64,000 nt of DNA, from assembly GCA_037043015.1 (NCBI GenBank), contig CM073321.1, forward strand, positions 24,813,510 to 24,877,509. Direction: 5' to 3'. The translations under genes and the position numbers were made by a program. The notes beneath the pieces were generated by a model. The model saw only the letters and a program-made list of their open reading frames with translations, was not told the origin of the DNA and ran no database searches. Each line of letters starts with the position of its first letter. Within the stretch, counting starts at the first letter, position 1. This DNA is from Bryum argenteum (taxonomy: Eukaryota > Streptophyta > Bryopsida > Bryales > Bryaceae). Shown here in pieces: positions 4,363 to 63,535 of the stretch.

Positions 4363-4390
4363 CAGGGATGTCACAGCGTCCGGACGTCCG
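4363..4390 (+). repeat. Left terminal inverted repeat of hAT element X
   Basis: It starts CAGGGATGTCA and has TCCGGACGTC about six bases further in. The right tips at 26049 and 63535, read inward, begin with the same CAGGGATGTCA and carry TCCGGACGTC (or a close variant) at nearly the same distance. CAGGG is a common hAT tip. Confidence 0.85.
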
Positions 4391-4479
4391 GCAGGGGTCC
4401 GGGGACCGTCCGTGACTTAGAAAATCTGGTCGTTTTACTAAGGGTAAATGACCAACGGGGTGCGTTCATTCGTCGAACC

Positions 4480-4690
4480 ACCCCGTCGACCGGTCCCCGA
4501 CCTCTCCGTCGGCCCGACCGACCGGTTGGGTGGCCAGGGCGACCGGCCGTCGGCCAGGGCGACCGGCCGTCGGCCGCGGGTGACCGGCCTTGGGTCCGGC
4601 CGTCGGCCCGAGCGACCGGCCGTCGATCCGGCCGTCGGCCCGGGCGACCGGTCGTCGGCCACGGCGACCGGCCCTCGCATCCGGCGACCG
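4480..4690. repeat. GC-rich near-palindromic array 1 (left subterminal)
   Basis: Repeats of CGACCGGCCGTCGGCC-type units, 15 to 20 bases long and nearly self-complementary, lie about 120 bases inside the left tip. Open frames across it on both strands are Arg/Pro/Gly-rich and are taken as artefacts. Subterminal repeats are known transposase-binding regions in hAT elements. Here the array also sits directly upstream of a TATA box. Confidence 0.8.
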
Positions 4691-4776
4691 CCAATGGCCA
4701 GATGGCCCTTTTGAGCATCCAACGGTTTAGGAGCATTTCAACTTCAAATTGCAACGGTCATATTCGGAGTTGGATG

Positions 4777-4785
4777 GTATATAAG
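4777..4785 (+). promoter_or_regulatory. TATA box of the hAT transposase
   Basis: GTATATAAG lies about 90 bases after the GC array. Leaving out the nested element F, the transposase ATG at 9555 would be only about 210 bases downstream. Confidence 0.65.
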
Positions 4786-4853
4786 AGAAGAGACATTGAG
4801 TCTCATTTCACTTCCGAATTTTGAACACTTTCCAAGAGCTTTGAGCCACATAA

Positions 4854-5137
4854 TGTCATGGGCCAAGGCCTCGTTGATAAGCTCGGATGTTCACTCGCTA
4901 TTAATTTTATAAATAGAACATTGGCAGTAGAGCTAAAGTATAGCCTCGGCAGTAGAGCTAAAGTATAGCCTCGGCAGTAGAGCTAAAGAATAGCCTCAGC
5001 AGTAGAGCTAAAGTATAGCCTCGGCAGTTGAGCCATGAGATTAGTATATAAGGGACTCTTATTCATTGTAAACCTAAGTCTTGGATCAATATATTTCTTT
5101 TGTAGTTTTTGCTTGTTTTGACAGCTAGACTCTTACA
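4854..5137 (+). repeat. 5' LTR of element F with internal 25-bp tandem repeats
   Basis: It starts TGTCATGGG and ends TCTTACA. Between about 4918 and 5035 it holds four to five copies of a 25-base unit (GCAGTAGAGCTAAAGTATAG and the next bases). A TATATAAGG box follows. Confidence 0.85.
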
Positions 5138-8100
5138 TAATCCAAGACTTCTCTTGATTTTCTGAAGGGCTTCATCCTCCCTTGTTTTTTCAAACGACAA
5201 AAGTAGGACATTGATTAGATTGAGGAACTTATCCACCCTCGTGGTAGTGATTGAAGATAGCCGAAGAATCGGGACGCATTTGAAGGCTTTGCGAAGCCTG
5301 AAGAGTTGATTGAGAGGTGTTGCTTTTTGAGATGGAGAACGCCCGAGATGATCGATGATGAGATCTTCCAGCAGAAGAAGAAGCAGCGCAAGGAGAAATT
5401 ACGGCGGAGGACTATCAACAAGAGATCGTGAGGTTGCGCACACAACTTCAAGCTTCTCAAAGAAGTCGAGAAGTTGGCTATCAGCGATTGGTTGCACAAT
5501 GATCGCGAGTGGATCAAATGGGCTGGACAATTCACGAGTTTAGTAGGTCCGTCTTCATCGCGAGATGATGCCGCAATCGATGCAAAGAACAATATAGAGG
5601 AAGCGCCGTCGCATTGCGCAAGCGATTGCCGATATTTCAAAGTTTGACGGGAGTCGCAAGGGCTACCCGATATGGAAGGTCGAAGCGGATAACAAGCTTG
5701 AATTGATGGAGTCAGTCTTGGTACACCTCAAGATCAAGCCGCATACTTGTTTTCGAGGATGGATGCGAAGGCGCGAGATGATGGTAGTATGTTTCTACCA
5801 AAATCAACGTGGTTGCAATGCGGCGACTTTTATTCAACATCTTGACAAAGCGTTTACATCGACCGAATGCAAAGAAATACTGGCATTGAATCGGCTTCAA
5901 GCAATGAAGCAGGGTAGGGAGTCATTCGCAACATTCTTGCCCAAGTTTGAGAAGGAGCTTGGTGAGAGTCAACTTACCATGGTTCCGGATATGGTGAAGA
6001 TAGGATATCTTTGCGGTGCTCTCAACTCAGAGATGCAACGCGCGATGATTGGACTTGTGACGTACATCGATTATGGTATGTTTGTCCAAGCTTTATTGGC
6101 GGTCGGCTCTCAACTTGATTGCTTGCAATATCAGAAGGGTCGTGCAGCTCTGATCGCGACATCAAATCGCGTATGGCCAGATGGAGAAGAGATGGATTGG
6201 ATGCCTACAGTCCAAATAAGCAAGCTTCGAGACGCGTCGACTTTGGAGGAACAACAACGGTGTCGCCAAGAGGGACGCTGTTTTTTATGTTTGAAGCGAG
6301 GCCACCGTGCAAATGACTGTTCATCCAAGCAAGGTGAAGGCAATGAGAAGAAGAAGAAAGAGAGCGCGGACAAAACTTCGATAGTGCGCGCAGTGAGAAA
6401 GAAGAGCAATGTCAAGACAGAGGAGGTCAAAGAGATGGAGAGTTGTGACTCTGATGTAGAGTCGGAAAACGAGCAGCTTCCGGCATAAGACTCAGTCGGA
6501 GGCGTGGAGGCAGGTTGTCAAAGTTGAAGAATCTAGGAGACAGCTTAGACACGGGTGGTATGTATGTTGATGTTTTAATAAACTCAATTATATCTACTCG
6601 TGCTTTGTGTGATTCTGGATGCCAATATTTGGAAATTGTGCCTGAGCAATTTGTTCGACGGAGAGGGTTGGATGCGTCATCTATTCAACCTAGATCTTTG
6701 GAGCAAGTTACGACAATGAAGAAGCGGCCTATGATTTGCCAAATTGTAAATTTTATGGCCGATATTGATGGTATGGAGGAGAAGATTGTTGCCTATGTTA
6801 TTCCATGACAGATAGATGATATAATCTTGGGAAAAGGTTGGATGGAGCGACATGATGCAAGTGTTCGACCTGCTAAAGAAGAGGTTTGCATTCGAAAACC
6901 TTTCAAGATGATTGTGAAGACTCGACCGATTACGTTGGAGCCAATGCAAGAGATACGTGCATCAGTGATTCAAACTTTGCAGAGAAGCGGTGAAACGGTA
7001 GAGGTTTTTAGTGCCAGCTTGGTTGACATCCAGAAGGCACTACAACAGAAGGTGTATAGGGACCCGGCACAACATGCTCCCCGATCGGCTCATGCCGATT
7101 ATTGACGCTTTTAATCGACAAGATGCAAAGTCGTTGCCCCCGTGATAGGAAAAGGGTTGATCACGAGATCAATCTTATTGAAGGAAGACTAATGATGACA
7201 TCCCCGCCATGCCGCAGACGATGTCCAAGGATCAATTATTAGTTTTGCGCAAGACCCTTACGGAGTTGTTGGATAATGGATTTATTCGCGTAAGTAATTC
7301 ACCGCAGCAGACTCCGGTCATATTTGTGAAGAAAACTGGCGGAGGATTGCGATTCTCGTGTTGACTATCGGCGATTGAACAAGATGAGTCGGAAGGATGA
7401 CTATCCGATTCGCGCATTGATGAGACGTTAAGATCCATTGCTGCTGACCAAATATATCTCCAAGGTTGATGTAATCTCTGCGTTTCATCGGATACGTGTG
7501 AAAGAAGGTGACGAGTGGAAGACGGCGTTCAAAACACGCTTTGGCTTATATAAGTGGTTGGTCACACCGTTTGGACTGACGGGCGCACCTGCAACTTTTC
7601 AGCGATATATCAATTGGATACTTCGCGACGAATTGGATATATGCTGCTCCACATATAGTGATGACGTGGTGATCTATAATGATACTCAAAAAGAACATCG
7701 TGATGCAGTTCTCAGGATCATCCGTAAGCTTGCTAACGCAGGGCTTCAACTTGATTTTGATAAGAGCGAGTTTGAAGCAGGCACTATTAAGTATCTTGGA
7801 TATTTGGTGAAGACGGTTGGGGTTTGCGGTCGATCCAAGCAAAACTTGAGGCAATTCGTCAATGGGAGCCGCCAACAAAAGTGAAAGGAGTTCGTGGATT
7901 TTTAGGTTTCTGCAATTATTATCGACAATTCATGGATGGATATTCTAACATTGCAGAACCTCTTACTCGACTAACGCGGAAAGATCAACCTTTCCATTGG
8001 ACATCGAAATGTCAACATGCCTTTGATCGATTGAAGGAGACATTAATTCATGCGCCGGTGCTCGTTAAATGGACTCCAGGTTTGGAAACAACCATTGAAT

Positions 8101-9264
8101 GTGATTCCTCTGGTTATGCTGTTGGTGGCACCTTAATGCAAAAGGTGGACGGACTTTGGCATGCGGTTGCTTATTTCTCGAAGAAACACAGTCCAGCGGA
8201 GTCCAATTATCCAATTCATGACAAGGAAATGCTAGCAGTTGTACATTGCATCCGCGAGTGGCGTGCATTACTTGTTGGCCAATATTTTGAAGTGAGTTCA
8301 CATCATCGCAATTTGACTTATTTTCAGAAGAAGCAACATTTGAGCGAGAGGCAAATGCGTTGGGCCTACGAGTTGAATGATTTTGACTTTGAGATCGTGC
8401 ACAAGCCTGGCAAGGATCAAGTTCAATCAGATGCACTTTCTCGTCGGGAACAGGATCTTCCCCAACACGCAGATGATGATCGAATCATGAATCGATATCA
8501 TCAGCTTTTGGACGGAGATGATGGCGCTTTGAAGGTTGTCGCTAAATCCGCATGGATCATAGATGGTGATGCAGATTCAGAGAAAGAGGCTCCTGCTACA
8601 GAGTCGATAATGACCCCGCGTCCCATATGTCCATTTATTGACGCAGAGATGATTGCATTATGGGATGTTGCCCTGCAAACAAATCATCGTTATTGGAAGA
8701 TGCGAAAGGCGGTTATGGATAGTGAGCGCCGACTACCTAAAGAATGGGGCTTACCTATCACGATTAGTGATTGTTCTGTAGATTCAGGTCATCGATTGCG
8801 TTGGCGTGGACGAATATGGATTCCGGCGCACGAACCTCTTCGGACGCGTTTGATCCAATCTACTCATGATTCACCACTAGCAGGACATCCAGGTCGTGAG
8901 GGTACGCGTGACTTGATTGCACGTGAATATACGTGGCCTGGGTTGACACAAGATGTTCGGAGATTTGTACGGAACTGCAACGTGTGTGGAAAATCGAAGA
9001 TTTGGCGGGAGCAGAAGCAAGGGTTGCTAAAACCTTTGCCAATTCCGGCACGGATTTGATCTGAGCTCTCCATTGATTTTATTACCGGATTGGCACCACG
9101 CAGCGACTGTACAAATATCATGGTTGTGACAGACCGTTTGTCCAAATCTATCATTGCTGTGCCTATGAAGACAATTCGTGCACTTGATGTGGCTCACAAA
9201 CTTTTAGAGCAAGTTTTTCAGCATCACGGATTGCCTACAGCAATTGTGTCGGATCGTGGTAGTC

Positions 9265-9417
9265 AAAGAATAGCCTCGGCAGTAGAGCTAAAGTATAGCC
9301 TCGGCAGTTGAGCCATGAGATTAGTATATAAGGGACTCTTATTTATTGTAAACCTAAGTCTTGGATCAATATATTTCTTTTGTAGTTTTTGCTTGTTTTG
9401 ACAGCTAGACTCTTACA
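9265..9417 (+). repeat. 3' LTR of element F (short copy)
   Basis: It matches the second half of the LTR at 4854-5137, including the 25-base repeats and the TATATAAGG box, with very few differences. It ends TCTTACA and is followed by the target copy CATAA. Confidence 0.8.
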
Positions 9418-9554: not shown

Positions 9555-12452
9555 ATGGGCCCTGCTCCACATGAGCCTTGGTTTAGAGACATCGAGAAGG
9601 AAGGCAAAGCGTATGGGTCCTTCTTACAGTGCTCACTATGTCGTGTAATTCTTTCGAAGAAGAAGAGTCGGAATTCGAGTCATTATGGGTACGAGAAGAT
9701 TCCTGGACATAGGGATTCGAGTTCTGTCCTTTGCCCAAAGCTGCCTAGGGAAATTAGGCAGTTATTTTTAAGATGTGGTGGGGAGTTCCCTCCATATAAC
9801 GGAGAATTGGAACTATTTCTCGGTGAATGTTCTCTCACTCCATCCACGGACGTTCCAGGTGCTTCAAAACATGACATTCCTGAAACCCCCAGGAGTGACT
9901 CTTGTGTAGGGTCCTCGCTAGGCACCCCCATGAATTCAACAAATCTTTTGGTAGGGTCAACCTCTGCTTCTTCCATGCATATGAGGGGAATAAGGGATAC
10001 TCGCCCGATGTTTGGATCTATGAAGCAAACGAAGCAATCTTCAATTGAAGCTACTTTTGCAGAAGCGGATAGGCAGGAGTTGGATAAACTCTGGGCGAAA
10101 TTTTTTTACGAAGCAAATATACCATTCTTAGTAGCCCGCAATGATGCGTTCAAAGCTGCCGTGATGAAGACTGCGGGATTTCAAAAATCCTATGCTCCAC
10201 CATCCTACCATGACATTCGGACAAGGTTGTTAGGAGAAGTAAAGACGGAGTTACAAAAGAAACTAGATAGTAGACTCTCTGAGAGCCTTCGGAAGTTTGG
10301 AGAAACTTTGACTATGGATGGATGGTCATCTGTGACTAGTCGCCCTTTGGTGAATGCGATGCTCGTGACTCAAGCCGGAGAGCTTTTTCTTGGTCTTTGT
10401 CGATACCATCGCCAGAAAAAAAATGTGTACATGTCAACTCTCATGTTGAAGTACATAGAACAAGTTGGACTAGAGAACATTGTTCAAGTATGCGAGACAA
10501 TGCTTCAGAATGCTCAATGCCTCAAGAATAGTCCTTGAGAAATATCCGCACATTTTCATGCAAGGGTGTGCGACACATGCAATGGACTTGTTGTTGGAGG
10601 ATTGGGGAAAGGCTGGATGGATGGCGAATATTTTGGTCATGGCGAAGAAAATGGTCAAGTTTATCAAGAGGCGACAAATGCCCTTAGCTGTGTTTCGTAA
10701 ACACGAGGCAAAATTCAGCCTACTGATGCCTGGGAAAACAAGATTTGCTAGTCAATTCATAATGATAGATCGCTTGTTGGAGGTCAAGGAATCATTGGAG
10801 CAAGTTGTTGTCGACCCTCTGTTCACAGCCTATGCCTCGAAGAAGACGGTATCTGCTAGAGATAAGCTTATATTCTCACGTAAGGTCAAGAAGGTGGTGT
10901 TGAGCGATGAGTTTTGGAAGCAATGCAAAAGACTACGGGATATGGTTGCCCCCGTGGTGTACGCTCTGAGAGAATTCGACGGCAAGGCTCCTAGTACGGG
11001 CAAGGCATGGCATATCATGCGTGATCTTGAGAGACATGTCCATACTTTGCACGCACCGCCCATCTCATTGGAACCACTTGAGGTGGCCACCACAAAAGAG
11101 GAGTTTTACCATCGGAAACGGCTCATGACAACGGATTTACATGGCGCGCGCTTTTGCACTTTTAAATCCTTATTTACTACACGACCAAGAGTTAGCTGAC
11201 GATCCCGATCTTACAATAGCTTGCAAGCGTGTTTTACAAAAATTATGTCCCGCGGAGGATTACGCTGACGTGGTGAGTGAATTTCTTGCGTTTCGAGTAA
11301 GGGGTCTACCATTCCATGACATCTTTGGAGCCTAATACTCAAAAACTAGCTCCACATGCATGGTGGGAGTTTGAAGGTGCTTGTGCTAAGCTCCTCTCTC
11401 CAATTGCAAAGCGAATACTAGCATGCACCGTGTCCTCGTCGACCATGACAACGCAATCGAGTAGCTACTCTTATGTTCACGACAAGAAACAGAATCGGTT
11501 ACTACCGGGCGGAGTGATGACTTGGTCTACATATATTCCAACTCGAAATTGCTCGCGAATGATAAGTTGAGTGATGATGGGCGGTGGTATAGAGAGAACT
11601 TGGATTTAGAGGAAGACCAAGTACATGAGAATGATGAGGAAGTCATCGAGGACGAATCGAGTCGATGACAATGATGTTTTTGAATTTGGCGATGAAGATG
11701 ATGATATGACTTTCTTCCCGCTTCAAATGATGAAGATGCTTCAAATGTTCATGATGCTAATGGTGATTTTATCGCTCATGGTCTTTCAGCGGATGATCTA
11801 GATGATGAGCAGCCGTTAGCCCGGTTAATGACACAAGGCGGCATGGACAAATCAAATAACGTTGTACTTGTTATCGCTCTTGGTTTTACGGTTGGAAAAG
11901 GAGGCGATAGATGCAAAGACAGCTGCGTGCAATACAATCTGCGGGCACTATGAGCTCGATCCGGTCGCGGAGAATATTGCATCCGGTAGTAAGGATCAAG
12001 TATCGATCAATGTGCTACTCCCCCCGCTTTATTTCAACCCTCTACTACAAGGGTTACGACAACCTTGGAGAAATCGTCTAAGGGTTTAGTATCCCTTTCA
12101 AGAGCCAAATATGGGAGCATCTCTAGTGACTACGATGTACCGTTGGGCGGGTATTTAAAGAATGCCAATGTTCTTCGTCTTGCCACGGGGTTCTGAGACA
12201 TGCTTGGCACTTCCAAGTCGCATAAACGGAAATCGCAACGGTTCCAATTGTTCCGCCTAAAAAGCCGAAGATCCCTGTTAATCTCCCGAATTTGATACTT
12301 GGCATAAGTATGGGAATATACAATGTCCAGAGAATAAACCCAAGATCAAAGAGGAGGTTCCAAGCGATTATGAATATGATCCTACGGGATCTAGTGGAGC
12401 TGAAGTGAAGGGAGATAGCAATTATGAGCAATCTTCTGGTCCTGAGGAGTAG
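9555..12452 (+). pseudogene. hAT transposase with BED-like finger and DUF659-like domain (frame-broken)
   Basis: This is the transposase of element X. The first 327-codon stretch (9555-10538) has a BED-like zinc motif (C26, C29, H43, H52). A DUF659/hAT core follows, with the first catalytic Asp in MDGW (D255). The DNAS motif lies in another frame at about 10498-10535. The next stretch (about 10510-11199) has YPHIFMQGCATHAMDLLLED and TRFASQF. The C-terminal hAT dimerisation part has APHAWWEFEGACAKLLSPIA (about 11355), then SSYSYVHDKK, then an RN[RW]L-like step and DDLVYIYSNSKLL (about 11515), followed by an acidic tail. The last acidic frame ends at a TAG at 12450. At least three or four frame steps are needed, so the gene is decayed, or the assembly has indels, or there are unseen introns. 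ATG 9555 is chosen because the BED-like domain starts right after it. Confidence 0.8.
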
Positions 12453-13030: not shown

Positions 13031-13645
13031 TTAAGATTTCCATGGCCTTCTCGATCTTTGCAATGACATCTGTACAACACCTTCAAACTCATCCAATAAT
13101 AGAAGTTGTGTGTCTTTTGGGTTTAAAAGACATTCTCTCCAAAATGTAATGGCGTCATCGATACGCGTATCAAACTTCTTCACCGCATCCCAATAAGAGA
13201 CCTCCACATCTTCAAAAGAATTTTCCGGTATCGAAATCCGGTATATTGCGGCCTCCTCCAATTTCGCGAGTACCAGAGCTCTTCCAATTGGAGTATGATC
13301 GTACTTCTTGTACTCCTCACCAAAGCCTGTTGAATCGCTTATTTCGTGCCACGAACCATCTTCTCCCTTTTCCACTTTCTTTGGAGGAAATCGAAAGAAA
13401 CGGTTGTGTTTGACGCTCCAATGCCCTCTCGAAATTACGACAAAACAACTCTCGTTGCTCATCACCTTCAATATTCCTCGCCCGATCTCTATTTCGTAAT
13501 CTCGTGTCATCCAAAATAATCGATCATGATCCCCACCAAATTGAATGGCTAGTTGGTGTTTTGATTCGGATGTACTCGGTAAGAGCATTTCCCCAATCGA
13601 GTAGTTTAGAAATTTCTTCGGTATTGATCCAATGGAAGATTCCAT
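13031..13645 (-). CDS. C-terminal part of the RING-type gene of element X
   Basis: A 204-codon open frame downstream of the RING finger on the same strand. It is acidic and mixed-charge, with WxxR/FxxF-like aromatic patches (RGHWSVKHNRFFRFPP), and I recognise no family. Between it and the RING frame, a third frame holds a stretch starting CRSPF that would fit after the RING motif. The simplest reading is one gene with two small frame breaks or short introns. No promoter-like sequence separates the parts. Confidence 0.5.
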   Translation of the reverse strand: MESSIGSIPKKFLNYSIGEMLLPSTSESKHQLAIQFGGDHDRLFWMTRDYEIEIGRGILKVMSNESCFVVISRGHWSVKHNRFFRFPPKKVEKGEDGSWHEISDSTGFGEEYKKYDHTPIGRALVLAKLEEAAIYRISIPENSFEDVEVSYWDAVKKFDTRIDDAITFWRECLLNPKDTQLLLLDEFEGVVQMSLQRSRRPWKS

Positions 13646-13708
13646 CGGTTGAACTCGTGCCCTGGTGGCATAAGATCTCGAATGCCTATCATCTCGTAGA
13701 ATCTCGTG

Positions 13709-16222
13709 CTAAATGGGGAGCGACATCTTTGGACATACCGATTTTGTCATCGCATATCGGCATATGCAAGTAACATGAAAGTTATGGCCACATTGGCCTA
13801 ACGTGTATGCACCCTCCGGACCAAAATTATGTAGGCACACCGCACATTTGTCTTTAAGTATTGCGGGAGGAGGGTCGCATGTGTTGATTACTATGCGAGC
13901 TGACTCTTGGAGGTGCGATGAGAATCTACTATACGGCGCCCATCCTTCCTCTATCTCCATAGTCCAATCAACATCATTGTTTCGTCCCATCTTAGAGTAG
14001 TTTGTACGCTCCATCATCTCTTCAATATCCCCCCAAAAAGTGACCTCTATGGGGTCATATCGTTTTTTCGATCTGTTCGTAACGAACTTCTCCAATGAAG
14101 CATCTACAACTTCACGTGATTCCTTTGATGTAGATGCAATCGATTTCAGATCTTCTTTTGCTCTCGAAACCAAGCTCCTCTTATCTTGAAGTCGATGAAC
14201 CCATCCCAACCATGGTAGTATGCGTAGGTGAAGGTGGATTGCTGCCTCTGTAGAATCTACCGTTTTGAAGGTTTTCCGTAATGCCTCCAATTCAGCGACT
14301 GCCTCATCTCTCTCTTTACTTGTAGCCTCCAACTTCATTGAGCATGCTTTTGCTTCCTCCTCCAATTTCGCAACTGTAACATCTCTCTCCTTCTTCACTG
14401 CCGCGAACTTCATCGCCCATGCTCGTTGTCGCTCAATCTGTCCATCATCTACCTCCTTTTGTGATCTTAACTTCAATTCCTCCGGAAGTTCATCATCGTC
14501 ATCATCGTCTAGTTCGATAATGGTTTTTCCCTTATCTTCTTTACCATCCTCTTCACCAACCTCTTTGAGAGGAGATAAATCCCTGATATACGTCTTTCTC
14601 TTCTCTTCTTCACCATCCTCTTTACCACCCCCATCAATTTGTGAAAGAAAAAGACTATCAGAAGTCCCGATAATGGTCTTCCCCTTATCTTTATTACCAT
14701 CCTTTTCACCATCCTCTTTACCATCGTCTTTACCACCCGCATCACATTCTGGAACAACATAACTACATGAAGCCCCCTGAGTGTCATCCTGTGGTGGAAA
14801 TAAGTTGAAATACTTATATCGGTTATCTTCTAAGTCTTCTACCGCCTGCCTTTGGCGCATTGCTTCTTCGTACTTTGCCACATACTCGCTAGCAGGACCT
14901 TGGCCAAACAACCGCAATTCCTTGTAAAACTCGTCAAGGAGACGTTGCGTAATTTGGTGTTGTTTCTGCAGTTTCTCAATGATTAGCTCATTCTTCGCTC
15001 GCTCATTCAGTAGAGGGTGGAATCGATCTATGATTGCCTCATAATTCACCGCAGCTTGTATAATGCCAGACAACATCGTTGCCAAAGCGTGACTCATTGA
15101 TACTAAACTGGGAGATATAGTAGCAAGTCTTTCTGACACCTCTTTGAAGTCGACGCCTACAGCAACTATTGAACCGCCTGAGGCTTTATGCCTAACCTCC
15201 CCTGGCAAACCTTCGTCTTTATCTACCTTATTGCACCAATCAGCCATCATTTCTGCGGTTTTCAACCACTCCACCAATCTCTTATTGCTCGGTACCGTAT
15301 GCAGATAGTCCAAGAAATTTTCCACCATACTACTTTCCGTATGAATGACATCTACGGCATCTGTAGGTGATCTGGTTTCTCGTCGTTCACTTGGCCCTGC
15401 CTCCTCTGATGTTGGTACTGGGGTTACACTTGGCCCTGCCTCCTCTGATGTTGGTACCGGGGTTACACGAGGTTCTTCAACTACGTTTGCACCTTCGAGC
15501 CTATCAGTTATAGTTGGTTCTACGATTGGGGCATCCGTAGGAACCATATTCCTTCCATCCTCCTGATGTGTCGTGGTTGTTGGAGGAGATTTCTTCTCCG
15601 CCGTCTCATGAGTTTTCCTCCTCAAGTACTGCAATAAGGCCTTTGTAGAGTTTGATTCTGGATCAAACCTATCAGGGATATCCTTTTGATTTCTCCCGAT
15701 TCGAAGAGGATATGCACTACTCGCCGTGAATGTGCTCCAGTTCACCTTGCGCTTCATTATGAGCTCAGCATACACCATGCTCAAGAGCGTATAGGAAAAA
15801 TAACCCTTGCTCTTGGGACGAGTTCCAAACAATGCCACCCACACTTCTTCAGCACGATGAAGGAAGTGATCATCCTTGCATGTTTGAGGGTTGCAAGTAA
15901 AATTATTGGTATTAACTTTGTGACATTCTCGAGGCCAAAGTTTCCCAATGTGATACATCTTCACATATTTCTTGCACGTTGCCATTCTCCAATATTCCTC
16001 CGTTTCATTGGCCCAACCGATCTCAGCTTTGATGGCCTCATTATCCAAGATGTCGTAGTGCAACTCATGTCTTGCTCCTTTTGGTTTCACTCTCTTTGAC
16101 GGTGTCTCATGTAAAACCAACTCAGTCCCCACCAATCCTGCGTTTGTGTTTTCTGTCGCAGGTGACCTCAAGGTCTGTTCAAAATCAGCTTCCATGTTCG
16201 TGTTATCAATATCCGTCGCCAT
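13709..16222 (-). CDS. KYVKMYH-domain protein with SUMO-interaction-like motif and RING finger
   Basis: An 837-codon frame. ATG 16222 is preferred over the open codons upstream because the conserved domain starts soon after it and a TATA box lies about 195 bases upstream. Residues 70-180 hold a Cys/His-rich domain (C83, KYVKMYH at 85-91, KLWPR at 94-98, C100-H101, C110, C115, H119) ending KRKVNW. A Pro/Thr linker follows with two VTPVPTSEEAGPS copies. Then come coiled-coil-like stretches and three acidic Lys/Asp/Glu repeats, each with KT(I/Y)I. The last, TIIELDDDDDD near residue 566, fits a SUMO-interacting motif. The end (about 790-837) is a RING-H2-like finger (CAVC, then CGHNFH, C, CPK) whose last Cys is lost at a frame step. 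SUMO-targeted ubiquitin ligases join these two features; the function here is inferred. Confidence 0.7.
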   Translation of the reverse strand: MATDIDNTNMEADFEQTLRSPATENTNAGLVGTELVLHETPSKRVKPKGARHELHYDILDNEAIKAEIGWANETEEYWRMATCKKYVKMYHIGKLWPRECHKVNTNNFTCNPQTCKDDHFLHRAEEVWVALFGTRPKSKGYFSYTLLSMVYAELIMKRKVNWSTFTASSAYPLRIGRNQKDIPDRFDPESNSTKALLQYLRRKTHETAEKKSPPTTTTHQEDGRNMVPTDAPIVEPTITDRLEGANVVEEPRVTPVPTSEEAGPSVTPVPTSEEAGPSERRETRSPTDAVDVIHTESSMVENFLDYLHTVPSNKRLVEWLKTAEMMADWCNKVDKDEGLPGEVRHKASGGSIVAVGVDFKEVSERLATISPSLVSMSHALATMLSGIIQAAVNYEAIIDRFHPLLNERAKNELIIEKLQKQHQITQRLLDEFYKELRLFGQGPASEYVAKYEEAMRQRQAVEDLEDNRYKYFNLFPPQDDTQGASCSYVVPECDAGGKDDGKEDGEKDGNKDKGKTIIGTSDSLFLSQIDGGGKEDGEEEKRKTYIRDLSPLKEVGEEDGKEDKGKTIIELDDDDDDELPEELKLRSQKEVDDGQIERQRAWAMKFAAVKKERDVTVAKLEEEAKACSMKLEATSKERDEAVAELEALRKTFKTVDSTEAAIHLHLRILPWLGWVHRLQDKRSLVSRAKEDLKSIASTSKESREVVDASLEKFVTNRSKKRYDPIEVTFWGDIEEMMERTNYSKMGRNNDVDWTMEIEEGWAPYSRFSSHLQESARIVINTCDPPPAILKDKCAVCLHNFGPEGAYTLGQCGHNFHVTCICRYAMTKSVCPKMSLPI

Positions 16223-16414
16223 GAAGAGTAGGGAGTATTTAAAATACCCCGAAGATATCCCAAGTATGCAAAAATTCGATGCAGCAGCCGCAAGTATCAC
16301 GCTGACTTCCCCCCGCCACCACAAATGCAGCACACGAGAAGCTAATGCTTACGGTTGCAGCTCAGTTGAGATGGATGAGTACAAGGAGAAGTGAGGGGAA
16401 ATGAGGCCCCAAAG

Positions 16415-16424: not shown

Positions 16425-16439
16425 CCCTCTCCTTCCCAA

Positions 16440-52423: not shown

Positions 52424-55400
52424 TGTCGTAACGTGCTTTTCCGATTCGTGCCCGGATAACCCTTTTTCACGGTAAAAGAGGTTTCCTAAACAAGAACCCG
52501 AGTATTCGTTCCACGGAGATCTGTGAAGTGCAAACGCGCATGATTTCCACTGATTAGCTAACCCGGATTTGTGCTATCCGGGTTCTATCCTATCCCCTCT
52601 GTGCCCTATATCCTCGTCTGGAAGAGCGCCGGACGGGGAGAGGAGAGGGTGTTTAGTCTTTGTGGTTTAATTTAGCCTCTGTATTCACCTCAGAGGGATT
52701 TTCCCGGACTTAGATAAGTGGGGGGATTAGGCCACTTCTCCCGTTGATTAACGTGACCGGAAAGGTCACCGAGACTCTCTCTCTCCTTACCCTGTTAGGA
52801 ACTTCCCTTATATCTCCCTCTACGCCTGGACTCTAAATCCACACGCATGTCACAAAGGTTGGTATCCGGTTCTCCTATGGTCCGGTTATCACAACTTACT
52901 ACCCGGGTTAGTAGATCCCGGTTTCTTCGGACTGGGGATGGTGCGATCGCCCGGAGTTCACCGCTATCACCTACTGAGACAAACCTGCCTACCCGGACTT
53001 CGGCGATCTAGGGGGACTCAACCGATGGTGTTCTCGGGAGTCGGTTGAGCGGCCGGAATCCCTTCCTGGCCGCTGTAATCCCAGACGCTACACGGACAGA
53101 CCGGACCGAACCCTAAGTGGCAAGTGCCGTTCGCTAGCCGCACTCCTCCCCTGTCAGCTTCTCTACCTCCCGTACTACTCTCCGTTCAAGGACGGAACCG
53201 CTCTCTCTCTTGCCCGGATAGCAAGGGTCCTCTGGACTCGCAAACACCCACCCAGTGAGACAAGACAGGGAAAAGGAGAAGGACACACAATCGACACACA
53301 CGCACACACACGAGGGAGATGAGAACGAGGCGTGCTTGCACTGGATTAGGGTATTGCAGAATCACAAAAAGACCCCGAGGGAGTATCCTCCCCTCGGCTA
53401 AGTAGCGGATCCTCCCTGGCATCCCAGAGAGGACAAAACCCTGTGCCAGGGAATCTTTCTAAATCTAGCCTCTGACACTCTAGCGCCGTCATTCTCCTAC
53501 TGCCATAAAGGCACTAAAATCTAACCCTATCCTCGGCCAGGTGCACCCGCCATCAATCAACTCGGCCCTAGTCCTTCCCCGTCGCTCATCCTACTTGCGA
53601 CCTCGCGATCTCGGCGATCTCGGCGGTCTCAACCTTCTGCGCTCCCAACCCGGGTTGGGAGGTGACCTCCTCCTCCTCGTTCCCCGTCTCTCTGGAGCCT
53701 TTGGAGCGGTCTCTTCACTCCCAAGGATCTCGGTGTCCCCGAAAGCATCGGGGGTGAGGTGTCCGGGAGTGCCTCCCGATCTCCGGGACCTTGATCAAGT
53801 CCTCGGGGATGAGGGGGACGGCCTCCGCGGTCAGCGCCTTCTTGGGGAGGACCTCGCTGTCAGAGGGCTCCGGTGGGACGGTTAAACCCGGACAGCGAGG
53901 TGCCCGCGGCTCCTTTGTTCCCAATCCGGTTGGTCGGGTATCGGCCTCACCTTCCTGTCCTGGTTGGATTGTGGCCTCTTGGGCGGGAATAGGACTCGGT
54001 CCTCGGGGTCCATGATCCGGACCGGGAAATGGGGAAGGATCCCTTACCCGGGTATCCTCCTCTCGCTATCCGAGAAGCCTCTCCTTCCACCGGGTTATGC
54101 CTCCCGGTTTGCCTCTATCTCCGGAGCGTCCTTGCAGGGGAGTGCAAGGCCCCCACCTCCCTCATGGTCTTCTCCGGGCTTGGGTTTGGTGGCGGGGATC
54201 GGCTCCTCCATGGCCACGGGATCGGTATGCTCTTCCTCCTCCGCCCCGCCCTCCTTAGTCAGCCGGGGTACCTGGATGGGGGTGTCTCTACTACCGTCGG
54301 GAGGTGCCTCCCGGGAAAGGTCCGGGCCATCTCTCCGATGAGTCCTCTCATCTCTGGAGGGCTCCTTCCATCCTTTCCGCGGCCTTCTTCATGTACGCCG
54401 CCATCCGGGTTGGGAGGTCCGATCCCGATGCACGGAATTGGGCGTCGAGCGGTGAGCCTTGTTTGTGCCTCTCCGGGTGCATACAGGAATCTCCCGAGCC
54501 CGAAAAGTCTTGCCGAGCGTACCCTACCTGCCGCTTAGACAGTTCCTCCTCCAAGCGGGCTGGATTTCCGGGCTTGCCGAAGGATGATGAGGGACCCCTC
54601 GTTGATGCTTGCCCGGCCGCCGCATTCTCTGGACTAGATCCCGCACCATGTCGGGTACCGCTCCACCTGGCGGTCCGGAGAGCTACCGATATCCCGCAGA
54701 GGCCTTATGCATTTGCGAGATGCTCTTGCGTGCATATACGCAAAGCGTGGGCGATCGGTTGCAAGGGGTGTTCCTCCGTTATCCGGAATGGGGGTACCGG
54801 GAGGCGTAGGTCGATCTCCCGCCTCCGCGGGTGAAATCCTCCCACCCGGGTAACCGATCGGTGTTGGTGGTGCCGTCTCTCCTTGTGCCGGGTAGTGGGG
54901 AGGAGAGAGTCTTGTCGATCGCCCCTCCTCCTCCGAGTCCGAGGACTCCTCCATCACCCTTTTCCCTTTCCTCCGGGCGTCTCCTTCCCGGGCGAGGTGG
55001 GTCATTTGTATGGCCGGAATAGTCCCCGACGGCGGTTCGAGGGGTTCGGCCCGACAAAGCAGGGAAGTAGCAGAGGGTCGCGGTAGTGTCCTCCCTGGGC
55101 ACGGTAAGCTTCCTCCGAATCCGGGGTCGAGGACTCTCGGAGGGGAGGTCCGCCTCCTCCTCTTCGGGCGACGTTGGGTCTCCCACTCGATTTCTCCTGC
55201 GGTGGCGGGGGCACGGGGTCACCTACGGGATCGTCGCTAGGAGAAGAAGTCCGCAGTATGCTCTCACTGTACTTCCCGGGTCGGAGTAGGTGCTTCCGGG
55301 TAGGATCTCCTCGCGGGAGTGCTCCTTCCGCCTCGGCCTCTCCCCGGTTGCGCTATAATTGCTACCTCCCGCCTTCCCGGGAGAGGAAGCCTCGGCCTCC

Positions 55401-57359
55401 ACGAACCTTAGCACCCGTCCGGATTTTCTCCGGTGTAGGACGGGAGTTCCTCTCCGTCATTTGTCGTTTCCCCGCACCGGTCCGAGAGGTGGTGGAGAGG
55501 CGATTGCAGAGGTCGTCGAGGCGTTGCCATGGCTACTGGGGAGCTCTCCTCCCGTCCGGGTAGGATCGGGCTCTGGTGGCTCGATCCGGTTGCAGCTCCA
55601 CTCCGGGTTGCCATCCGGTGGCTGGTGGTTGGCCGGGGTGTGGTGGCTCCCTCCGGGCGGGGTAGCGGGGCGACCTCCCTCTGCCGGAGGATGGCTGCTC
55701 CTCCTGCACCAGGTCCTGGCGCTCCCTCATCTCCTGGCCGGGGTGCTTCTGCTCCTGACCTCCACGGTCTCTGCTCTCCTGGGCCCGGCGGTCCTGGTGG
55801 TGCAGGAGGTGGAGGTGGTGGGAGTGCCCCTGCTCCGGGGGCGGGCACCCTGGGGAGTAGCTTGGTCGCAGCAGGAACTCCCACCTCGGGAACCTGCTCC
55901 CCGGGAAACATGTCCCGTCTGCCCTCCATGAGCATCCTGAGGAGGGTGATCTAACCCGGATTGAGGCACTCGTAATGCGCGTGTCTGGTGGTACACGTAT
56001 GGTGCCAGGGGACAGCCCTTCACACTGACGGCCTTTTTCGAGGCCCGGACGATGACCTCCTCAAGGATGTGCCCCCACCCTACGCGCTTCCGGCCCAGGT
56101 AGGACTCCATGATCGCCTTCAGGAGCCGGTTTGACACAAATTGTGGCTTCTCCGGGTTGAGGATCGGTGCGGGGGAACCGAGCAGACGCCGCTCCCGAGC
56201 ATTCGCGCAATCCTCCACTCGGTAGTAGCCGTCGTGCTCGTGCGCTGGGTTGTGGAACATCCCACCGAGGGAGGGATCGTTCCTCACTGAATGTATCCGG
56301 TGGAGGAGTCCGGAAAGCCGTATGTCGCCTCCAAAGACGCCTCCGCCAAAAGTGCGGCTTGGCCCGGACGGGGTTGTCGGCGAAAGTCGGTGGATCTGTC
56401 CGGACACGGCCTCCTCGATAATCCCTGCATCCTCCACATTCCGGGCACCCAAGACAATCCTACGCACCCCATCCGCGTCAAGTCCCGCACCAATCGCGCG
56501 CCGGGCATCCACCGCCATTGGAATGCCGGCTGGATAATCTTGCTCCTAATCCGCGAAGCTCTCTCCCGGCCATGTCTCCGTACTCCTCCTCTCCGGGCTA
56601 TGGGTGTGGGGACGGCGCGTGTCTGTGCTCGTGCGAGATTTGGGGAGCAACTCGATCGGCAATGGCGCACGAAAAACGAGGAAGAGAGGAAAGGGGGAGA
56701 AAATCAAAAGGAAGGACAACGGCCTTCCCGTGCCATTAACGACAAAAGAGAGTGGGGGAGGTGTGGTACCCTTTTTTTTGCGGCGGCGCACCTTTAATCA
56801 CGGGCTTGTCGGCCGGGATTGTCAGCGCGCCGCCGGTGGTTATACCGCCCGGACCGTCCTTCCACCCGGCGGCCTCTCCGGCCATTGATAACCGGCCGGG
56901 TTATAACCGGTCGGTCTATGTTCGGTCGGGCCATAGCCGGGCCGGGCAATGACTGTCCGGGTCGTGCCCGGACAAATCGTACCCGGGCCTCTCATGCCCG
57001 GTCGGCACATGCCCGATCGGTGCATCCCGGGTCAGTATATGCCTTCCCGGTTTGAGGCAGACCCGAGACTGGTCGGCTAAGCCCTACCCGGGCGCTCAGT
57101 GCTCGGGCTAGGCACGGTGAGTCCGTGCACGAGTTTTAAAAGCAAAGGTTACGAAGCAAAAGGCGGGTTAGAAATTCCGCTATCCTATCCTGCCCACTAA
57201 GCTTTAGGATGCTCCCGGACAGGCAGGTCCCTGGCTAAGCTAACCCTACCCGGTTATTACCCGGATAGCCGGTTACCAGGGCGTTATTTATCCTATTTAA
57301 CTACTACTAAGCACTATCCGGACCAAATTGGGGCAAAAACGAAAAAATGAGGTTTGACA
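52424..57359 (-). mobile_element. Element C: 4.9-kb LTR-like unit inserted in B2
   Basis: 5-bp target copies GAGAT (52419-52423 and 57360-57364) bound it exactly, and B2 sequence is continuous across it. On the minus strand it starts TGTCAAACCTC and ends ACGTTACGACA. These are the same kind of tips as the LTRs of families A (TGTCACATCC to GTGACA) and B (TGTCGCGCACC to TTGCGACA). I find no long direct repeat between its two ends and no polymerase or integrase. It carries a gene related to that of element D in the same direction as the proposed LTR. The best reading is a very long solo LTR with a gene inside. A non-autonomous unit with TGT/ACA tips is the alternative. Confidence 0.65.
53500..56573 (-). 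pseudogene. Element C gene, relative of the element D gene (broken)
   Basis: The ATG at 56573 opens with MAG as in element D. The conserved domain is clearest at about 56520-55950: HDGYYRVEDCANARERR, NPEKP, LGRKRVGWGHI and LAPYVYH match GYSVEDCKDPRER, GEKP, LRGKREVDWG and ITPFLYHLY in D. The rest is Pro/Arg/Gly-rich with acidic patches, and a possible helical segment (KKAAERMEGAL) lies near 54390. It is a fossil copy with several breaks. Domain name and function as for the D gene. Confidence 0.6.
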
Positions 57360-60113
57360 GAGATGACAACTTGTTCTTGAGTTCCTCAAAGGCTTGGTAG
57401 CAAAATTCATCCCATACTTGGTTCACCCCTTTTTTCAACAAGTCGGACAAAGGCTTGGCAATCTTAGAGAAGTTGCGTATGAAGCGGCGATAGTAGTTTG
57501 CTAGGCCAAGGAATGACCTAAGTCCCTTTTGTGTAGAAGGCCGCTTCCACTCTTGAATTGCCTTCACCTTCTTCATGTCCGGCTTGATTCCATCTCCGGT
57601 AACCACATGGCCCAAGAACTCCATCTCAAGTTGTGCAAACTCACTCTTTTCCCCATTAGCATAAAGCTTGTTGTCTCTAAGCTTCATGAGTACGCCTCAA
57701 GGTGCCTTGCATGTTCCTCGGCCGTCTTGGAAAACACCAAGATGTCATCGATGTAGACAATCACAAAGTCATCCATTTCCTCTCGAAAGATGGTGTTCAT
57801 AAGGGTTGTGAATGTTGAGGGTGCATTGCACAACCCAAAGGGCATCACAAGGAACTCATAAGACCCATACCTTGTGCGGCACGCGGTCTTTTCCACATCC
57901 GCATCCGCAATGCGGATTTGGTAGTAACCCGACTTCAAGTCTATGCGACTAAAGTACTTAGCTCCCGCCAATCTATCAAAGAGATCATCAATTCGAGGCA
58001 AAGGGTAGTTGTTCTTGATGGTCACCTTATTCAAGGCCCTATAATCAATGCACATCCTAAGCTTGCCATCCTTCTTGTCCACAAAGAGGACCGGTGCACC
58101 ATATGGTGACTTGCTTGGTCTCACATAACCCCTTTCCAACAAGTCGTTTAGTTGCTTCTTTAGCTCCATCAACTGTTTTTGGTTTAACCGATAAGGTGCC
58201 TTAGAAGGTGGCTCGGCTCCGGGTAGCACCTCGATCTTGTGATCCACTTCTCTTCTTGGGGTAGCTCTTTGGGTAACTCATTGGTAAGCACATCCTTGTA
58301 CTTGGCCAACACCTCTTGAATTTCTTTGGGAAGTGGTTGTTGCACCCCCTTCCCCTCATGCCCAAGTTGCTCTTCACGAGCCATCACCACAAATTGATGT
58401 TCCAACATTTGGTCTAAAGAGACCAAGTTTAATTTGCCCCCCGCTATTGAAGGGCCACGAGTTAACTTCAACACTAACTCCTTGCCATCACGGCGCACCA
58501 CTAACCGTCTTTGGCTTGCGCCTCACATCCACCGTGTGCGCCTCAAAGAAGGTATCCCCTAAGATGAGGTCTACCTCATCCATCTCACATAATGTAAAAT
58601 TCTCAACAAACTCCAATGTCCCACACTTCAAGGTCACTTGCAACGCCACTTCCTCCGTCTTGTGCGGTTCGCCCCTTTGCAAAACGCACATTGATGGGCT
58701 TGCTTGCCTTTTGCAGTGGCAAGCCCAACTCCCTTGCTAGTTTGGGACTCATGAAGGAGTGCGTTGCCCCTGTATCAACCAAACATGAGACATCTTTGTT
58801 CTTCACTTGGGCCTCAAGAAACAAGAGGCCCGGCCTTGGCTTGAGGCTACTTGCCTTGGCCACAAAACCTCCTTCTAGTATGCGGTCTTCAACACAAGCA
58901 AGACTTGCAATGGTACTCACCTTCTTGTCGGGGCACTCCGCAATGAAGTGGCCAATCTTGCCACAACCATGGCACCTCTTGGCCTTGGTGTCATCACCTT
59001 TGTCTCCCCCTTTAGATGGCTTTCCCCCTTGGTGTTCCCTTTTGTTAGAGGCTCCACCATCCACTTGTCCCTTGTGTTTGTTGCCAAAGCCAAACTTCTT
59101 GCGCTCTTTGCCTCGAGCCGCATTCCTATTTGATCCACTTTGTTGAGAGGGGCCACTTGACTTCCTCTCGGGTCCATCACCTCAATCCTTTCAACAATCT
59201 TGATGATGCCCGCCACATCCTCAGGAAGTTTTGGGAACTTGAACAAGGCATCCACCACCCACTTTTGAAGCCCACCCAAAAAGATGCACTTCTTAGAGAA
59301 CTCATCCATCTTGGGTGTGGCATTCATTTGGGCATTGAAGTCACGCACATAGGCCTTGAGAGACCCGGTGTGCCTCATTTGCACCAAGTTCATGCCTTCC
59401 CTCAACTCCCGATACTACGGTGTGAAGCGTTCACTCAACAAGTCTTTGAAGCCACCCCAAGTCAAGTTTGCCACCAACTCCGGCTCTTGCTCCTTTTTGC
59501 TTGTCCACCATTGAAGAGCATGATCCTTGAGAAATATCACCGCAATGGAAACCTTGTCCTCCTCATCCGGCTTTTGGACATCATAGTAGTTATCCATCTC
59601 AAGAAGGAATTCCTTCACCTTCCTTGCCTTACCAAGTCCCCGAGAAGGTGCTTGGCATGTTTACCTTAGCCAACTTTTTGGTGGAAGATGAAGGTCGGGA
59701 CCCTTGCATCATGAGGTGTTCAATCAACCTCTCTTGGCGATCCCTTTCTTCCTTCCCACGCTTGAGCTCTTGATTCACGGAGTCCATGAACTCAAGCATT
59801 CTCATTTGGAAAGCCAATTGAGGATCTTGTTTTTCCACCCCTTGGGAAGACTCTAGGCGTCTCGACCTAGAGCGCTCCTCTTCACCCAAGGGCTCCTCTT
59901 GAAGTGACAATTCCATTTGCTCATTGCCCTCACTAGTGGCAGCTTGCTCATTGGAGTCATGAGAATGAGCCTCACTTGTAGGATCGGGGTCTTTGTTCCC
60001 CCTCGTGCGTGGCCGCTTGGAAGCTCCGGGCTCATCACCCTCAATGGTCTTCTTCTTGCCCATTGCTCCTCACAACTTTGCACTTGGGTACTAAAAGCCT
60101 GCTCGATACCAAG

Positions 60114-61403
60114 TGTCGCAACCCTTGCTAGCTCACCTTGGCTTACACCAACTTTTTCCCAACTCTAGCAAGTGTCACGAGCGCTAACTCGCACATCCCC
60201 ACATGCACAAAGTTAGCTCTCCATACCAACCACCAAGCTCACTGCTTGGTTATCAATCCCTCTTACTCATGCAACCGGGACTCAACCCCTTCGTAGGTAG
60301 CCAATGGTTAGGTGCGGACTTCCACTTATGTCCAAGGCCCAACTTGGTGGCACTCCCATACCACGCGGCCTAACCGCACTTGGTGGTGTCTCCTCACCAC
60401 CGCCCATGACCACCATGGTGACCCCAAGGCCACCAAGTAATCACAACGCCGGCGGTGAGACACCACCCCACATCGGTAGAACTCATGGTCCTCATTTTGC
60501 CTATATGAGTCCCCATGGTGGAGCCCCAACACTAGCTCCCCCACCGGGACTCACCTTGTCCTTATGAGCCACCGTGGTGAAGCCCCAACACTAGCTCCAC
60601 CCACCGTGCCTCATTTTGCACTTTGAGTCCCCATGGTGGAGCCCCAACACTAGCTCCACCCATTGGGACTCACCTTGGCTTGGGAGTCCCCATGGTGAGG
60701 CCCCAACACTAGCCACACCACTCGGGACTCCCACCTTGGTCACCACCAAGGCACCATGGGAGTGGGGAGGAGACCAGCCCTCCCCATAGTATACTCTGTG
60801 GGATTCGGCAGCCCCTGGTCCTAGGTGAAGGGCTGGACCCTCACACCTCTAAGGTTTGGAAGACCACCCAATCTCCCAATGCCTTAGCCGCTGGAAGGCC
60901 CCGGAGACTTCCCGAACCTTCCAGGGCTCGTATCTACCTCGTCCCGCATCCAAACGCGACGAGCGACCACTCTATCGACATCTACTCGTCAAGTAGATGC
61001 CGATAGACACCTTACTTGCCTCATTCCGACAAGTATTGAGGGAGTTATGCCCCTCTGAAGATTCGGGAGTCCCGGGCCAGCTTCCAGTCCAGCACTGTCC
61101 CTGGACAGCACTCCCTTTAGTCCCACAATCTTCCAACTCCCATAACTTTTAGCTCACACCTCCAACTGAGGTGCTCCTTAGCATCCCGGAATCGTGGCAA
61201 CATGAGCTTCCATAATCTCATGTCCATTCCGTCGTGGCTCCTAGTCTCCGTGGGTGAGAGGCGTCTCCAACGCCCGGGGTCCTCTCCCACACTAGGCCCA
61301 CTTAGGTTCCCTTCACCTTGGCACCCCAAGGCCCGGGCGTCACTCCGGTGTCCCCCTTGGGCTCTTGGTGTTGCGGGCACTCCTCAAGGAGAGGTGCGCG
61401 ACA
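60114..61403 (-). repeat. B2 LTR, right copy (5' LTR)
   Basis: 1,290 bp. A primer-site remnant lies at about 60101-60113. It abuts the kinase gene copy 2 directly. Confidence 0.95.
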
Positions 61404-62791
61404 ATCTCCAAGTATTGGTCAAAAGCATTTGCCAAGTCTTGATTGCACCACCGGTCAGGCCCCGTTGTACTTTGGCAATTCTCGTAGGCCTTCGACATGC
61501 TCTTCTTGAGGATGCGTTGTGCTATTCGTGCCGTAGCAAACTCCTCCGAAGCGCAATCAAGAAGGGGAATAATGTGAATGTCATCACTCCGTTTGTACAA
61601 GTACGCCACCCGAGGATCTACCCAATATCGTGCTTGTAGAGTATCAATTCGCTCTTGGGGTTTTGTGAACGTATACAAGGACCTCATTTTATCATCCATG
61701 CTCGTACTTAGCCCCCAATCACATACTCCAATATACACCCGTGATTCATCTTGAGGGAAGTGAAGAAGTATGTTGTCTGGAGACACATCGTTGTGGAGGT
61801 AGTTCAACCGGTGGACTTCACACATGATATGCACTAAAGCCCAAGCAAGCTCTGTTCGTTTTTTGCGGAACCGAACCAACTGCCAAGCTCGAATAAGCTC
61901 ATCATCAGAATGAGGTGAGAGTCCGATCTCTCCATGAACATCATCTCCATATCTTGCATCAAGGGCCAACATCGATCGAATCGTGCCGCCATTCCACCAA
62001 TACGTATAGCCTTGGAATTTATTTGCATGAATGGCTATAAAACGAATAACACCTGGATGTTGTATCCTCACAGCAAGCGCCTCATTCTGATGCTCCACCT
62101 TGGCGAAGTCTGGTCGTGTCACAGCATGGATGGGAGTCTTTGCAGCAAATTCCCAAAACTCTTCAATACCCACAACCCCTCTTATGTGAACTTTGGAAAT
62201 TGTGCCGTATCCTCCCCTTAGAGTCCTCTTCTCAAGCTCGATGATACGGGCCGTCATAGGAATTACTACCAAATTATTCGTACGAACCAGCTCCATTAAC
62301 CTTCCTTGTTCCGTGCGCCACCATCCTATGGAACCAACCCGGTTTTTATTATTGGAATACGGCCTCATCACTTCTTGAAAAGCCTCCGTCCTCAATACCA
62401 CATCCCTGAACTCCTCATCACCCGCTCGAGTGGTTCTCTCATACCTCTTCAATATGTCGACAGCATTCCAAAGAGCATCAATTAATCTATCCTCCATTCA
62501 GTCCGTAAAACCACGCTTATCGGTCTCCGTTCTCCACACCGGATCTTGGAGCGCTTCCATCATGAGGTCCATCATGTCCTCCTTGAATTTGGCCACAACT
62601 TCCTCTTTGTATCTCACGTATTTGCTAAACAAACGTGGAAGACTATTAGCCTCATAAAATCACACGATTACATTCTCCCGAAGAAAGTTCTTGCACTTAT
62701 TGGATGGGTGCTCCCACTTCTCCAAATGTCTAACAACCCTTGGTCTCCGGCCTCGATTCCCCCCACAACCCCCAACCCTATGTTTGGGCAT
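61404..62791 (-). pseudogene. Protein-kinase-like gene, copy 2 (right end of element X), cut by the B2 LTR
   Basis: This is nearly identical to 23824-25213. ATG is at 62791 (MPKHR). A long unbroken frame from 62497 covers MEDRLIDALWN, the Gly loop GGYGTISKV, the AAK Lys, HNDVSPDN and DWG. In copy 1 the N-terminal part of this frame is broken, so copy 2 shows the family better. The C-terminus is lost: at 61403 the frame runs on into the LTR of B2 for about 20 codons. The same genomic position in copy 1 is unbroken at 23824, which marks the insertion point. A kinase role is inferred from the motifs. Confidence 0.75.
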
Positions 62792-62957
62792 CTTTGTGAA
62801 AAAAAAAGCAAAATCTCCCCCCTTACAAACGAAAAGACTTCTTTCCTCCGCAGGAAAAGGAGCCAGTGGATGAAAATTAAAAAAATTTCCAACCTACAGC
62901 TACTCCGCACCCTGATAACGAAGGAAAGAAGTGAGGAGAGTGGAGGACCGGTCGGCC

Positions 62958-62965
62958 TTATATAG
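62958..62965 (-). promoter_or_regulatory. TATA box of kinase copy 2
   Basis: CCTATATAAGG on the minus strand, as at 25380. Confidence 0.7.
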
Positions 62966-62967
62966 GC

Positions 62968-63350
62968 CGCGGTCGCATGGCCGACCGGCGACCTAGATCG
63001 GACGGCCGATGGCCGACCGGCCCGACCGATCTGACGGCCAGCGCCGACGGGCGCGACCGATCAGCCGCGGCCGACCGATCGGACGGCCGGCGCCGACCGG
63101 CCCGACCGATCGGCCCGGCCGACCCGACCGATCACCGGCGGCCGACCCGACCGGTCGCGGCCGATCGGACGGCCGACGGAGACCGCGACCGATCGGTCGG
63201 CCGACGCCGACCGGGGCCGATCCGACGGCCGACCGAAACCGCGACCGATCGGACGGCCGACGTCCGATCAAGCGACCGATCCGTCGGCTGCGACCGATCC
63301 TGCGGCGTCGACCGGTCGGTCGGCAAGGCCAATCGGACGGTTCTGTTCCG
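62968..63350. repeat. GC-rich near-palindromic array 6
   Basis: The same units as array 5, about 90 bases shorter. The flanking single-copy parts are nearly identical, so the length change lies in the repeat units. Confidence 0.85.
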
Positions 63351-63505
63351 CCCGATTGAATACAACGGTAATCACCTACACTCACAACACTATTTGAACG
63401 GCTACGATGCGATTTTCAATACGATCTGACGGTTAAAAAATTTACTACATGCATAGTAATTCCGATTTACCCCCCGGACGGACAGACATCCGTCCGACCA
63501 AAAAA

Positions 63506-63535
63506 ACCCAAAAGACGTTCGGATTGACATCCCTG
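63506..63535 (-). repeat. Right terminal inverted repeat of element X
   Basis: TGACATCCCTG ends at 63535, with GACGTTCGGA just inside. It is followed at once by the 8-bp copy TTCCGGAT and the rest of the family A LTR. Confidence 0.85.

Follow-up and report, generated by a model that had tools for sequence, protein, structure and literature searches.

A family of 17-kb hAT transposons with extra genes of their own in Bryum argenteum, and one insertion whose interior appears chimeric

DNA transposons of the hAT superfamily are generally described as small units that carry a transposase only, and the 64,000-nucleotide stretch of Bryum argenteum DNA analysed here (the window; assembly GCA_037043015.1, contig CM073321.1, C1:24813510-24877509 in a genome of 258.8 Mb and 25 contigs) raises the question of whether two hAT tips lying some 59 kb apart in it are the ends of one insertion and whether the RING-type, Tyr/Gly-rich and kinase genes between them belong to the transposon. 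A sequence-only reading had answered both parts in the affirmative and had pictured a gene-carrying element of about 17 kb, later lengthened by insertions. The explanation that we favour, with a probability of about 0.78, is the insertion of a member of a multi-gene hAT family of approximately 17 kb (element X), into which a tract from a sister element (Y) has been pasted, the further genes having an accessory role.

The left tip is the 11-bp terminal repeat CAGGGATGTCA, whose only + strand occurrence within the window is at 4363-4373 and which opens a left end (4363..4853, + strand) continuing in GC-rich GACCG-type repeats; the outer right terminal repeat, TGACATCCCTG, lies at 63525-63535 (+ strand) and occurs a second time in the window, at 26039-26049, an occurrence that the sequence-only reading does not mention. 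The flanking 8-bp copies that had been described are present, TTCCAGAT at 4355..4362 inside an LTR-A repeat and TTCCGGAT at 63536..63543, beyond which LTR-A resumes, and they are alike at 7/8 bases rather than 8/8, with one difference (chance approximately 0.0004 for one pair). When 4163-4362 is joined to 63544-64000, alignment within the window gives one unbroken LTR-A repeat, and the joined flanks align across the junction to two window copies, that at 3600-4350 and that at 1700-2480, the latter differing by some small gaps and by a length change of 33 bases just past the junction; the LTR-A copy at 1-1000 ends at the junction. In the whole genome, all 40 scored matches to the joined flanks (of 813 candidates) are single matches across the junction, 91-94% identical and running from query base 5 (in one case 2) to 367 with the junction at base 200, so that none of the 40 holds an element there, and the empty LTR-A site that the sequence-only reading had suggested looking for is thereby found. 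From the target copies, the continuity of LTR-A and these uninterrupted genomic matches we conclude that a single insertion site has its ends at 4363 and 63535.

The element belongs to the hAT superfamily on three counts: its 8-bp target-site duplication, its terminal inverted repeats (CAGGGATGTCA at both ends), which fit the pattern [T/C]AGNGNNG given for plant hAT tips (PMC6027215), and its transposase domains. The transposase gene (9555..12450, + strand, frame interrupted and end approximate) encodes DUF659 above the cut-off (1.5e-35), and the hAT dimerisation region follows after a stop in a copy on C3, just under the cut-off (9e-4, 19.4 bits vs 21.4). Most of the long transposase relatives carry both PF04937 and PF05699, and those named to an organism come from distant flowering plants, at 28-34% identity. 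On the minus strand lies the gene for a RING-H2 protein (13031..16222, frame broken near 13708), with a finger above the cut-off (zf-RING_2, 6.2e-7 in the window protein and 1.4e-8 in a relative) and the RING-H2 zinc ligands in place, so that ligase activity is predicted from sequence. Seven of its ten relatives are long (960-1140 aa) and have invariant residues in common both before and after the finger, the other three being of 485-578 aa; in the viral_contigs and genome_contigs collections 68 and 88 pattern matches to RING relatives were obtained, none of them confirmed. The Tyr/Gly-rich gene (21795..23004, + strand, frame interrupted) encodes a protein whose N-terminus is paralogous to the corresponding domain of the RING protein (32% over 112 aa, 2e-16). 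Two related stretches of the hAT, 16964-18550 and 20588-21394 (approximately 80%), the second of them upstream of the Tyr/Gly-rich gene, are apparently a partly decayed duplicate of that gene's upstream region.

The first copy of the kinase gene (23735..25100, minus strand, upper end approximate) lies in a tract common to sister element Y. The window kinase falls below the Pfam cut-off, but Pkinase is matched by 11 of the 13 sequences aligned, and the alignment shows no or almost no variation at the catalytic lysine, HND, asparagine and DWG. We class it as a protein kinase on motifs and fold, the support from fold being weak and the model of low confidence (mean pLDDT 60.9); all 50 matches listed in the fold search are kinase entries, the best at E 1.1e-3 and none at or below 0.001, with TM-scores mostly of 0.2-0.4. 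Among 57 kinase relatives the best named is from Ceratodon purpureus, as is a later one, and the third that carries an organism name is assigned to a Bacilli metagenome bin and is probably stray plant DNA. The genome itself gives five LEAFY SAM-domain matches above the cut-off, against none in 14 control genomes, which places the host among the land plants or their close allies, and the Ceratodon relatives point to a moss. Between two near-identical copies, window 9628-15205 and C1:24974500-24983200, the differences are often adjacent swaps or single-base gaps, which suggests that some of the broken frames in the window are residual assembly errors; the broken frames are therefore not proof of decay.

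Clusters of GACCG/CGGTC repeats accompany these genes. They lie at the left end, on the 5' side of the RING gene (16360..16620, GC-rich), upstream of the Tyr/Gly-rich gene (21160..21650), in a partial copy (81%) of that upstream region (18360..18600) and 5' of the first kinase copy (25400..25900). All but one of 15 comparisons between clusters yield more shared 9-mers than any of 30 shuffles does, the exception being that of the clusters at 16.4 and 18.4 kb, which share two. These repeats are possible binding boxes, candidates that we put forward on their sequence.

The sequence-only reading had proposed searching the assembly for tip pairs with 8-bp copies enclosing the same genes. Scoring the best 40 of 762 candidates for the left end gave 46 matches in the genome, and the best 40 of 465 for the right end gave 54; all copy counts given here are lower bounds, as the best candidates only were scored. 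Pairing the best 40 left with the best 40 right ends, on one strand and 2-80 kb apart, yields at least 12 pairs, eight of them at 15.2-18.9 kb and four longer (30.8, 35.3, 51.7 and, for the window itself, 59.2 kb). None of these 12 pairs is shorter than 15.2 kb, and no element with these tips bounding a transposase to the exclusion of the RING and kinase genes, the finding named beforehand as fatal to the proposal, is among them. Both flanks were read for eight of the 12 pairs; the target copies agree at 8/8 bases in six (GTGGTGTC, GTGTGGAC, TTCCAATG, ATCTTTAG, GTCTCGAA and TCCCGCTC) and at 7/8 in two, the window and a pair on C4. A search with a 13-base tip pattern was unspecific (25 matches vs 13 in the reversed control). 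On C1, a left end at 31970955 (+) and a right end at 31982815 (-) lie on opposite strands with a common target copy, GCTACAAG; the likely cause is an inversion that broke the element at one of its ends of inversion, or else a misassembly.

The genes travel with the tips. The genome holds at least 122 matches to the transposase exon, at least 54 to the RING frame and at least 111 to the kinase, and the eight pairs at 15.2-18.9 kb enclose a scored match to the kinase in every case, to the transposase in six and to the RING gene in four. Transposase, RING gene and kinase follow one another collinearly, in the orientation of the element, at no fewer than 23 loci (RING within 25 kb, kinase within 30 kb), with the transposase on the + strand and the RING-H2 and kinase genes on the minus strand; in the window the Tyr/Gly-rich gene (+) stands between the last two. 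Controls for this order gave one wrong-order neighbour per gene pair and 0, 2 and 2 neighbours on the opposite strand, and shuffled positions gave means of 0.65-1.55 neighbours, the sizes of all contigs except C1 and C3 being estimates in the shuffle. Of 121 transposase matches, 87 are without a scored RING match within 25 kb, a figure in which damaged copies are mixed with incomplete scoring. The claim that this hAT carries at least three more genes is thus borne out at the level of a family of approximately 17 kb.

Whether these genes do anything for the element is a separate matter, and the first alternative to be weighed is that the RING, Tyr/Gly-rich and kinase genes were taken from the host on a single occasion and play no part in the life of the element. 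Such capture has a precedent in Pseudocercospora fijiensis and its relatives, where a DUF659 hAT of 9.5-9.9 kb with 8-bp target copies has amplified a histone H3-like sequence to many copies (PMC6710886). That element has its DUF659 transposase, 8-bp target copies, gene cargo and many copies in common with the family described here; as reported there, however, it carries one captured gene type, inactivated by RIP, whereas the window family carries three different genes and its kinase has a mean dN/dS across copies of 0.495 (30 copies, none dropped). This value lies near that of the transposase (0.433; 28 copies, 2 dropped), with shifted-frame controls at 0.77-1.03, and argues against idle cargo. 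Between nearest copies the kinase value rises to 0.587 (transposase 0.432, controls 0.68-0.83), and for the RING gene a single testable pair gives 0.81, a weak datum; both of these lean towards capture. The fixed gene order speaks against it, as does the occurrence in a protein collection of three RING and three transposase relatives, from the same source, on contigs of equal size (8,444; 17,649; 7,321 bases) where 0.01 would be expected. Judged by these equal contig sizes, RING and transposase relatives appear to share contigs in other organisms, the RING relatives concerned being 33-54% identical over part of the protein. For kinase and transposase there is one contig of equal size (27,639) vs 0.21 expected, which is weak, and in the same collection no RING and kinase relatives were found on equal-sized contigs. 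On balance we regard single, functionless capture as unlikely.

The sequence-only reading fares less well in the interior of the interval. This is made up of 4363-26049, about 6.3 kb of an unrelated repeat that we call Z, three LTR-retrotransposon bodies, one further insertion and a separate 2.1-kb hAT right end. The first portion measures 17.1 kb once a 4.56-kb LTR retrotransposon is subtracted (4854..9417, + strand, with RNase H and integrase zinc-binding domains, a 153-bp direct repeat and target copies CATAA at 4849-4853 and 9418-9422), which is missing from sister element Y. It closes at the internal right tip already mentioned (26039..26049, + strand), after which come CTCAAAAG, a feature shared with the right end of Y, and then Z (26050..27348 and, on the + strand, 35393..40360, the second part with a 30-bp minisatellite at 35947-36846). 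Z, which is the flank of Y, is split in the window by a retrotransposon of the Gyp family (27349..35392, + strand, target copies GTCTT, LTR pair differing at 5/1291 bases). Open frames of 297 and 621 codons occur in Z, the longer in its second part, with no Pfam family above the cut-off, and most scored copies of Z are on C1. Beyond Z lies a recombinant Gyp retrotransposon (40361..61403, + strand) with its left flank from Z, its right flank from the hAT, and unlike flanking bases, CGTTC before and ATCTC after; two insertions break it up, a further Gyp on the minus strand at 43079-51128 (target copies TTGGA) and an unrelated sequence at approximately 52424-57359, which starts TTGTCGTAACG and ends TTTGACA. 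The right end that belongs to the LTR-A insertion (61404..63535, + strand) begins at ATCTCCAAGTATTGG and contains a second, C-terminally truncated kinase copy on the minus strand, together with a GACCG/CGGTC cluster at 62980-63420; the two hAT right ends of the window are 94% alike.

Sister element Y lies inverted approximately 90 kb away, flanked by Z at 98-99% identity, and its locus matches the window in the internal right end at 26049, in Z, in the Gyp at its left end and in the hAT body, here at least from approximately 13 kb onwards. Since the second right end at 26049 is followed by the very repeat that flanks Y, the interval is best described, from these alignments, as a chimera in which one portion derives by copying from the sister locus and into which retrotransposons have inserted. 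At 9416-10500 Y is no closer than another copy, both at 1.8%, and the left-tip repeats of the window element differ from those of Y. The right piece (61404-62999) is 98.5-100% identical to Y, and the best 40 matches to its first 200 bases show a likeness of 98-100%, so that the kinase end taken alone is no proof of copying from Y. The proposal that the transposase side and the kinase side form one insertion thus stands in part, as the outer ends do share one LTR-A site, but 61404-63535 and 4363-26049 are not simply one split element.

Three other accounts of this interior deserve mention. The first is that two neighbouring elements contributed one tip each, left and right respectively, to a unit that moved with the intervening DNA into LTR-A, much as the composite hAT units bounded by the tips of two elements that are documented for maize Ac, where the original is retained (PMC9910405). 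This would account for outer tips that share a target copy and for a whole element plus flank between them. The model needs a second right end at the sister locus, downstream and in the same orientation, however, and the 0.47 kb read beyond the Gyp of the sister contains none; GTTCC stands on either side of that Gyp, the model would have to invoke an additional Gyp-Gyp deletion, and the left-tip repeats differ from Y. We consider joint movement of this kind improbable. The second account, in which near-identical hAT and Gyp repeats misled the assembler into linking the X locus to the Y locus, gains some credence from repeats of 17 and 8 kb and from the signs of residual base errors, and yet the Z of the window and that of the sister differ by 1-2% and the retrotransposon at 27349-35392 is in the window only, so that they are two different copies, and the assembled path comes back to precisely the other half of the LTR-A site that it left; an artefact of this sort seems to us more improbable still. 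The third, a single 17-kb hAT split by later insertions alone, as originally pictured, explains the outer ends, target copies and LTR continuity and, unless the assembly is at fault at 26049 and 61403, is rejected as barely credible in view of the two right ends, the unlike flanks of the Gyp at 40361-61403 and the match to the inverted neighbour, to whose flank Z belongs.

Our preferred reading, that of a tract pasted from Y into X, may be set out as follows. The original element X would have inserted in LTR-A, its outer ends surviving at 4363 and 63535, and a non-reciprocal ectopic exchange, either gene conversion or break-induced copying, would have pasted the Y-locus tract into X, with hAT homology at its left boundary and Gyp homology at its right; retrotransposons would have inserted after the exchange. 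The hAT transposase would move the element by cut and paste, while the RING protein, its N-terminal paralogue and the kinase would be the element's own accessory factors, probably acting on regulatory proteins of the element or of the host via the GACCG-type repeats found at both ends and next to the genes. Their proposed output would be control of the expression, silencing or timing of transposition.

Plant hAT elements of the Ac/Ds type likewise have 8-bp target copies and a hAT transposase, and the terminal repeat CAGGGATG... of the window element presumably resembles the Ac tip; they differ from the window family, which reaches 17 kb and carries three or more genes besides the transposase. 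Among DNA transposons that encode accessory proteins is VANDAL, which belongs to a different superfamily from hAT and offers a parallel in function only. VANDAL elements of Arabidopsis encode VANC anti-silencing proteins, whose noncoding targets are rapidly diverging tandem repeats (PMC10398659). A survey of plant hAT elements gives 7,144 bp for the longest plant consensus and found no hAT in a moss, Physcomitrella (PMC6027215), and the word hAT is absent from the main text of a review of giant eukaryotic transposons (PMC6431247). Among titles and the opening lines of abstracts in the open-licence literature on large or cargo-carrying hAT elements, we found no description of a 17-kb multi-gene family.

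The distribution of the family is uneven, C1 making up 17% of the assembly but holding 53-69% of the scored hAT modules, and C1 is possibly a sex chromosome. Large, gene-rich UV chromosomes are described in Ceratodon (PMC13120521), and a cluster of 126 kinase relatives bears a Ceratodon gene name with the tag KC19_VG055000, which, from the tag alone, reads as a location on the V chromosome. We suggest tentatively, and at rather less than even odds, that mosses host an ancient multi-gene hAT clade with its own ubiquitin-ligase-like and kinase regulators, which act on shared repeat boxes, and that it accumulates on a repeat-rich, possibly sex, chromosome, where its genes can be mistaken for those of the host.

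The family itself is real and unusual, a hAT with extra genes of its own. A 17-kb hAT with a conserved set of RING, paralogue and kinase genes would extend both the size and the gene content of the superfamily, and would open to experiment a transposon equipped with ubiquitin and phosphorylation machinery of its own. The exchange between X and Y, some 90 kb apart, would be an example of large repeats rewriting one another, and the family would alert annotators to the possibility that 'gene-rich' plant chromosomes have received some of their genes from elements of this kind.
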